From an uncultured Flavobacteriales bacterium (GTDB taxonomy: Bacteria; Bacteroidota; Bacteroidia; Flavobacteriales_D; CAJJDF01), in NCBI GenBank assembly GCA_905182785.1, contig CAJJDF010000036.1, positions 1-64,000 of the forward strand: a stretch of DNA of 64,000 nucleotides, given 5' to 3'. This document shows positions 62,852 to 64,000 of this stretch, one piece after another (the first letter of the stretch is position 1; every line of letters starts with the position of its first letter). The notes below the pieces were generated by a model. It was not told the origin of the DNA. It saw only the letters and a program-made list of their open reading frames with translations, and did not search any database. The translations under genes and the position numbers were made by a program.

Positions 62852-63516
62852 TACTTTTGTTTTTCTTTTCTCAATCGTTCTTCTGCTTCCTCAATCTCAA
62901 TATCCAGATGATCGGTAAATAAAATTCCGTTCAAATGATCTATTTCATGCTGAAAAATGACAGCTGTAAATGCCTCAATCATTTCTATTTCGTGTGTTCC
63001 ATCTAGTTTTTCGTATTCCAATAAAATCGCATAAGCTCTATTCTTGGTTGTGTCCATTTTATCTGGAATAGAAAGACACCCTTCTAAACAAAACTGAGTC
63101 TTTTTAGAATATTGTTTTATTGTAGGATTAATATAAGTTTCGAAAGGAAAACCCTCTTTGTCATACCTTTGCACTACAATCATGTTTTTAAGAATCCCTA
63201 CTTGTGGTGCCGCAATTCCTACTCCAGCATGGGCAGGATCTTGTACTGTAGAAAGTAACCTTTGCGACAATAGTTTTGTCGTCTCTAAGTCTTTATTCAG
63301 ATTAATGCGATTACTTTTCGTTCGCAATAAAATAGAATCTTGCTTATTGGTAATTAAAAAAATACGCATTGGATCATCTGATTTCCCAGTATTGATTAAC
63401 TCCTTTTGTGAATTTGTATAGTTATTATACTCCCAACTGATGTCATTTGCTTTTTTCTGAGTTACACAAGAAAAAACAAGCAGGAGGGAAGTGCAAGAAA
63501 TTAAGAAAAGTCTCAT
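62851..63516 (-). CDS. Peptide deformylase with lipoprotein signal peptide
   Basis: The 221-residue protein has all three deformylase motifs: GVGIAAPQ (98-105), EGCLSIP with Cys147, and HEIDH with His190, Glu191 and His194. A metal-binding active site is thus intact. However, it begins with a hydrophobic signal sequence and lipobox LVFSC (Cys17), followed by a linker (about 20-45), so the enzyme is predicted to be lipidated and exported. Normal Def is cytoplasmic and acts on nascent chains, so its substrate there is unclear. It is coupled to the downstream flavoprotein gene. The housekeeping def gene must lie elsewhere. A second start further in that omits the signal is not apparent. Confidence 0.85.
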   Translation of the reverse strand: MRLFLISCTSLLLVFSCVTQKKANDISWEYNNYTNSQKELINTGKSDDPMRIFLITNKQDSILLRTKSNRINLNKDLETTKLLSQRLLSTVQDPAHAGVGIAAPQVGILKNMIVVQRYDKEGFPFETYINPTIKQYSKKTQFCLEGCLSIPDKMDTTKNRAYAILLEYEKLDGTHEIEMIEAFTAVIFQHEIDHLNGILFTDHLDIEIEEAEERLRKEKQK

Positions 63517-63763
63517 TGTGGTTTTGTTTGATGCGAAGATAAGGAAAAGTTTGTTCTACACCTTATGTGGGAGTAAAAACGGAATTAAAACAACTTTGTT
63601 GAATCCAATTAAAAACAAACGGACTGCACTTTTTCCTGATAAGGAATATTTTAATTTAGGAACAGATAATTCAATTACAATAAACCCTAAAAATAAGATT
63701 ATCAACAGTAGTGTTGCAAATAATTACAACACAGTTACCTTGGGCTGCTAAAACGATGATGAG
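63517..63763. other. Intergenic region upstream of the deformylase
   Basis: No gene is supported; a plus-strand open frame crosses it but overlaps the deformylase gene and its translation resembles nothing. It should hold the deformylase promoter, but no exact TAnnTTTG element was found on the minus strand. Confidence 0.35.
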
Positions 63764-63894
63764 GCATAACGGTTAGCATATGAAAAGTAGGTGCTTTATA
63801 AGCATCAAACTTTCGGTTAAACACGAACTATCGTACGAGCCACAAGCTTTGATTTCATGACTGTTTCGCCTATTTTTTATATGCAGTGTTGGCA
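63764..63894 (-). repeat. attC-like palindromic element (integron-cassette-type recombination site)
   Basis: The 131-base element has inverted ends: GCATAAC (63764-63770) and GTTGGCA (63888-63894) as outer boxes, with inner boxes AGCATAT (63775-63781) and ATATGCA (63879-63885). A 19-base imperfect stem (63775-63793 with 63867-63885; one mismatch, three G-T pairs) follows, and a second short stem (ATCAAA 63804-63809 with TTTGAT 63848-63853) lies inside. The layout R-L-stem-L-R and the length fit attC sites. The boxes depart from the classic RYYYAAC/GTTRRRY consensus, so this is likely but not certain. It begins 15 bases after the stop of the YwqK-like gene. Confidence 0.5.
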
Positions 63895-63909
63895 AATCGT
63901 TTTATCATA

Positions 63910-64000
63910 TTAAAAATTTTCCGTTTTTATAAATTTTCCGTTTTCATCATAGTATTTCCATTCACCAGTTGGTTCTCTATTTTCATATTTTCCAATGACT
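63910..64000 (-). CDS. Partial YwqK/MORN-like repeat protein (3' end only)
   Basis: The minus strand reads, in the frame from 63999 to the stop at 63910-63912, 29 residues: VIGKYENREPTGEWKYYDENG and then KFIKTENF. This is the Gly-Trp-Tyr repeat of YwqK-type (toxin_YwqK/MORN-like) proteins, G-x-W-K-Y-Y-D-E-N-G. The 5' part lies outside the window. The gene sits directly beside the attC-like element, in the position of a cassette gene. Confidence 0.7.
   Translation of the reverse strand, partial: VIGKYENREPTGEWKYYDENGKFIKTENF

Follow-up and report, generated by a model that had tools for sequence, protein, structure and literature searches.

Integrons, such as those of VchIntIA (structure 2A3V) and IntI1, are built from a tyrosine recombinase (IntI), an attI site and attC sites. 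Next to the recombinase is an array of small cassettes, all on one strand, in which each gene is followed by a site. Cassettes have a G^TT boundary, the R'' and R' boxes are complementary within a cassette, and an unpaired, asymmetric spacer separates the R and L arms. Toxin-antitoxin pairs and resistance genes are among the cassettes carried, and clusters without a recombinase (CALIN) also occur. XerA, in comparison, resolves chromosome dimers at dif. Like other simple Xer-like enzymes (NCBIfam NF040815, 'site-specific tyrosine recombinase/integron integrase'), it has no IntI insert. The literature calls the additional domain of IntI necessary or essential (Messier & Roy 2001, as cited in PMC2426708; PMC8138268). 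An extrahelical G, in the L'' arm of attC, is reported to be absolutely conserved and to give strand choice (PMC2727003). According to surveys, integrons are few in Bacteroidota (PMC9024848; the phylum is also listed in PMC8618304), and IntegronFinder 2 found one complete integron in Bacteroidetes proper, in Salinibacter (PMC9024848). A gene named 'xerD', or TnpF, has been noted next to tet(X) in Acinetobacter and Bacteroidota elements. No integron was found there; the gene was described as an isolated neighbour and its role was left open (PMC7473080; PMC11194056).

The DNA analysed here (the window, 64,000 nucleotides) is from contig C36 in the genome (2.32 Mb, 73 contigs) of an uncultured Flavobacteriales bacterium. 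The contig ends at position 64038, 38 bases beyond the window. We propose that a palindrome at positions 63764-63894 is, very probably, the cassette-end (attC-like) site of an integron-like system by which Bacteroidota capture genes. Reading the + strand, boxes GCATAAC (63764-63770) and GTTGGCA (63888-63894) enclose inner arms GCATATGAAAAGTAGGTG (63776-63793) and CGCCTATTTTTTATATGC (63867-63884). Together, the arms form an 18-bp stem that includes three G.T wobbles; an extra A/A mismatch extends the stem to 19 bases. Hence, the boxes and 19-base stem of a preliminary description, made from this DNA alone, can be read directly and are real. The outer boxes were also described as paired. They are present but pair weakly (TAAC with GTTG), as fits two boxes that belong to different cassettes.

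Next to the palindrome is the 3' end of a MORN_2/YwqK-like gene (63910-64000, minus strand; Pfam PF07661, E = 1.9e-9), which runs off the contig. The gene ends ..GEWKYYDENGKFIKTENF, and its stop codon (63910-63912) is 15 bases ahead of the R'' box, in agreement with the proposal of an attC-type site directly behind a YwqK-like cassette gene. Since the MORN_2 gene and its stop have this placement on the minus strand, we take that strand to be the cassette strand. The attC-like site then covers about 63765-63894 (minus strand) and scores 121 bits with our covariance model. From the gene stop, the order is R'' (TGCCAAC, 63888-63894), ACT, the L'' arm GCATATAAAAAATAGGCG (63867-63884), a variable part, the partner L' arm CACCTACTTTTCATATGC (63776-63793), TAACC and R' (GTTATGC, 63764-63770). 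R'' is part of the MORN cassette, and its AAC is invariant across the site family; L'' and L' make up the covarying 18-bp stem. The likely crossover, G^TT in R', is between 63770 and 63769, a position deduced from cassette boundaries in the arrays of relatives and from a tet(X) cassette found in three contexts. The flank past R' (63517-63763, no strand assigned) could be host DNA or the beginning of a cassette that once came next, and has no convincing gene. An open reading frame here (63491-63751, + strand) was considered as a gene; it overlaps with the deformylase gene and is probably not a true gene.

By itself, the element folds weakly (+ strand z = -1.8, with 12 of 200 shuffles equally good). 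Conversely, a nucleotide profile for which all sites of this genome were left out gave a single match in the window, at 63766-63893, with E = 1e-28. Note that E-values from our model R1 are partly circular, because the window and relative sites were used in training; this leave-this-genome-out profile counters the problem. We therefore regard homology, not folding, as decisive for whether the window site is real. Rfam contained no fitting family for the window element (best match AaHKsRNA20, E = 1.1) and none for the arrays in relatives.

The element belongs to a widespread family. BLAST searches of 150 genomes of the order, with a relative's copy, identified 70-93% identical elements in 26, spanning several families. 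Between bacterial families, identity can exceed 90%, an indication of horizontal movement. The covariance model detected sites in 139 of the 297 sampled genomes of Bacteroidota, representing 83 of 141 genera. This survey scored 11 candidates per genome, so site counts are lower bounds; full scoring gave 47 sites in one genome. In the alignment, AAC is invariant at the left, GTT is nearly invariant at the right, and the spacers are 3 and 5 (rarely 6) bases. The stem, of 16-18 bp, has diverged with its pairing maintained. Thus, 12 of 22 pairs were altered on both sides, compared with 6.0 in shuffles (0 of 500 shuffles did as well), and the stem covariation score was 0.218 versus 0.077. The 18-column L stem has no bulge in 28 of 30 sites, and a one-base gap in L'' in the other 2. 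Hence, these sites differ from attC in lacking the extrahelical G. Instead, an A.C pair on the cassette strand (G.T on the bottom strand), at columns 22/109, is invariant in all 30. Of 184 sites, 154 are predicted to fold more stably as the bottom strand; this energy prediction amounts to ~2 kcal/mol on average. Some sites are of a longer type, ~190 nt, in which the variable part contains an insertion (L014:2374-2562, L063:1603-1797 and L062:13635-13829). Separately, the start of a group II intron (RF02001, 43.7 bits) is found in genome G005 (L020:4361-4725), ~170 bases past a site and at a contig end. Group IIC introns target attC sites, and the location recalls this behaviour.

Logically, if these sites end cassettes, the DNA on either side should reflect it. 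All 34 loci with at least 3 sites carry every site on one strand, so array polarity can be seen directly. An integron array is defined by two or more cassettes, in one orientation, that are within 4 kb of each other, and these loci fit that definition. Median spacing is 900 bp, and the longest open reading frame is on the site strand in 107 of 125 intervals between sites. The bases after GTT, at the cassette start, are the reverse complement of those before AAC, at the cassette end. For consecutive sites, all 5 tested bases agree in 67 of 102 pairs, a rate lowered by intervening sites that the model missed. The same match is seen in 2.4% of non-consecutive pairs (permutation 0/20000). Usually, the match extends over seven bases (N7) and is followed by a constant A/G difference, again a G.T on the bottom strand. 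Judged by these sequences, the sites delimit cassettes that begin G^TT-N7 and end with the inverse N7-AAC, followed by a palindromic site of 130 nt (sometimes ~190 nt). The complete genome G007 contains an exact tandem duplicate of one cassette, gene plus site. Several G007 cassettes resemble anti-phage defence genes: UzuA (E = 3e-95; L063:8993-9796), a PDC-S36-like gene (L063:112-888) and a Dam-type methylase (L062:13904-15000). An erm(F) gene (L063:7715-8515) lies amid the cassettes, on the strand opposite to the array.

Clinically important resistance genes are carried in the same way. In Riemerella anatipestifer plasmid pRCAD0416RA-1, a site stands behind each of aph(3'), a phosphotransferase gene, estT, tet(X), blaOXA, a toxin-antitoxin pair and a second tet(X), and all have one direction. 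A Riemerella plasmid HTH/RelE toxin-antitoxin pair (L077:15589-16261) is a cassette with matching ends; large chromosomal integrons likewise hold toxin-antitoxin cassettes. The Myroides plasmid p63039 similarly has sites behind blaMYO-1, blaOXA and a GNAT gene.

We also noticed a short dyad, often located after the recombinase stop codon, with GTT directly next to it. In one clade this takes the conserved form GGATATA..TATATCCAATT|GTT. The start of the first cassette matches R'' of the first site at 7 of 7 bases in 9 of 23 loci, compared with 3 of 506 other combinations. We take the dyad to be a putative attI equivalent. Most informative is the tet(X) cassette, which starts GTTATGTGCCATTTTTGAATGACAATGCGAATAGATA. 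On the Riemerella plasmid, two different sites precede this start, and on pHH1107 it comes after an attI-like dyad; the junction is always at GTT. One junction point in three contexts is our best evidence for a G^TT exchange. The pHH1107 dyad follows a truncated recombinase, TnpF, which falls inside the array recombinase group of our tree. Hence, what was an isolated and unexplained neighbour in earlier reports appears here as a truncated array recombinase plus its first cassette, with tet(X3) starting at the attI-like G^TT junction. Behaviour of tet(X) as a cassette would directly answer the question, raised in PMC7473080, of whether the neighbouring XerD mobilises tet(X).

Recombinase genes stand at the heads of the arrays. 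In G007, a 381-residue tyrosine recombinase is encoded directly ahead of the array and co-oriented with it. Homologues head arrays in the same orientation in G345 (two arrays), G341, G154, G204, G373, G265 and G333, and divergently in G187, G329, G193 and G322. In total, at least 13 arrays in the sampled genomes begin beside a tyrosine recombinase, mostly 0.5-5 kb away, and the array always points away from it. We also inspected 80 named recombinase loci as an independent set; here, 48 of 50 detected sites were downstream and on the recombinase strand. The site-bearing loci number 16 and are all from Bacteroidota (e.g. Winogradskyella, Algibacter, Zunongwangia, Arundinibacter and Flavobacterium). 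No site was found at any of ~34 named loci from other phyla, where our Bacteroidota-trained model would miss divergent sites. Arrays in G417, G309 and G287 are accompanied by no recombinase of the family at E <= 1e-40.

These enzymes share catalytic residues with XerA and differ from it in their position at the head of cassette arrays. The ~42-residue IntI insert is absent from 15 of 15 array recombinases. Consistent with this, the conserved lysine box is 64-65 residues from HxLRH, rather than 106 as in IntI1, and alignment with 2A3V places 21 residues opposite 64. Their best family match is NF040815 (198-236 bits, around the cut-off of 220), and TIGR02249 scores (188-211 bits) are under the cut-off of 265. 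Note that TIGR02249, tried as an integrase probe, matched nearly every genome and 14 of 14 controls; only its cut-off is informative. In the tree, array recombinases are apart from IntI1, a Kuenenia IntI and E. coli XerD. An AlphaFold model of the G007 enzyme (mean pLDDT 80, pTM 0.55) has as nearest folds the Vibrio integron integrase 2A3V and, about tied with it, archaeal XerA (XerA/XerC-like). Since the two are about equal, the modelled fold leaves membership undecided. Many array recombinases have an extra N-terminal alpha/beta domain of ~100 residues, with W..W motifs (L062:11379-11700 and homologues), that is confidently folded in the model. A Pfam search with this domain gave nothing above cut-off. 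Three loci, from Anaerophaga, Bacteroidetes GWF2 and Alkalitalea (L184, L187 and L191), encode recombinases of 675-718 residues with an apparent second, degenerate unit before the active one. These are possibly covalent pseudo-dimers.

We infer that the array recombinase is the catalyst. It would cut R' at G^TT, with the folded bottom strand as the probable substrate, and join cassettes to attI or to other sites, with excision, capture and shuffling as in integrons. The system would thus be integron-like in how it works, yet by the defining features tested it is not an integron of the known kind.

Could divergent attC sites be moved by a conventional IntI, with the Xer-like recombinase an incidental neighbour? 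The G^TT boundary and R''/R' logic are alike, spacing and bottom-strand bias are similar, and 2A3V is the closest solved fold, about level with archaeal XerA. However, no IntI exceeded the curated cut-off in any of the 150 genomes of the order, and the array recombinases lack the insert that such an enzyme should have. Adjacency and array polarity, consistent at 13 loci or more, also argue against an incidental neighbour. Together with the absent extrahelical G, this renders an ordinary integron unlikely. One suggestion of the preliminary description was a cluster of attC sites without an integrase. The attC-type, CALIN-like character of the site holds. The site does not belong to an ordinary CALIN of a known integron, because the extrahelical G is missing from the sites and the IntI domain from the partner recombinases.

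The alternative suggestion was a Bacteroidota mobile repeat that mimics attC. The sites are indeed widespread in Bacteroidota, and mobile; mere mimicry does not fit the cassette boundaries, the attI-like site and the adjacent recombinase in relatives. Similarly, a palindromic mobile repeat (REP/MITE-like), or a transcription terminator that is behind genes by chance, would account for a long palindrome, mostly close after stop codons, and for the many dispersed copies in G000. Neither predicts a match between the flank beyond one copy and the inverse of the sequence preceding the following copy, nor duplication of whole units, one-strand arrays, and a recombinase with an attI-like site at the array head. 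We consider this very improbable. Equally, modules might be moved by chromosomal XerC/XerD at dif-like sites, like the pdif modules of Acinetobacter. This draws on the Xer-like nature of the array recombinases, and on the 'xerD' genes reported beside tet(X) (PMC7473080; PMC11194056). Our sites, however, are structured palindromes of 130 nt with variable outer boxes, and arrays hold many of them. A dif site is 28 bp. Furthermore, the tree separates the array recombinases from E. coli XerD, and at E <= 1e-40 none was found in the window's genome, despite its XerC/D-like hits. This explanation is extremely improbable. An integron-like system, with its own Xer-derived recombinase, remains our preferred reading.

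How, then, did the site come to be in the window? The absence of an integrase from the window, remarked on previously, holds, and no recombinase of the array family was found in the whole genome at E <= 1e-40. At least 15 sites, at E below 0.002 with the covariance model, are scattered across many contigs. Hence, the element is not single-copy, and real cassette arrays are present in relatives. A further MORN-linked copy is on contig C37 and a third MORN-linked end, decayed, is on C38. Besides the window's, two MORN_2 gene ends with decayed sites behind them were noted in this genome at L014:6060-6380 and L013:1-373, and contigs C36 and C37 both break within MORN repeats. An initial DNA search of this genome mainly recovered the MORN 3' end, not the site. 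Note that one site is visible in the window and that the 5' end of its MORN cassette is off the contig. The window edge had been suggested as the start of an array; rather, the site is the downstream end of the MORN cassette. Because the genome has no recombinase of the array family, this cassette end may be a dispersed, CALIN-like remnant. Alternatively, the recombinase that moved the cassette may have acted in trans or have since disappeared from the genome. At the deformylase locus, comparison revealed no clean empty site: G002 and G003 align only up to the gene, and G003 has a different neighbour.

We found no earlier description of these arrays in the literature searched; preprints and subscription papers were outside the search, and a prior report is possible. 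Our data suggest that Bacteroidota probably have their own integron class. This would combine an Xer-derived recombinase, without the IntI domain and often co-oriented with its array, with an attI-like dyad right behind the recombinase stop and hairpin sites of different anatomy. It would be the phylum's main gene-capture platform, with sites in roughly half of the genomes sampled, and the origin of mobile tet(X), blaMYO-1, estT and related genes. If so, most cassette arrays of Bacteroidota escape surveys that use IntI and classical models of attC. Cassette capture at folded sites would be possible without the additional domain held essential for integron activity, and how a strand is chosen without an extrahelical base would become a question in its own right.
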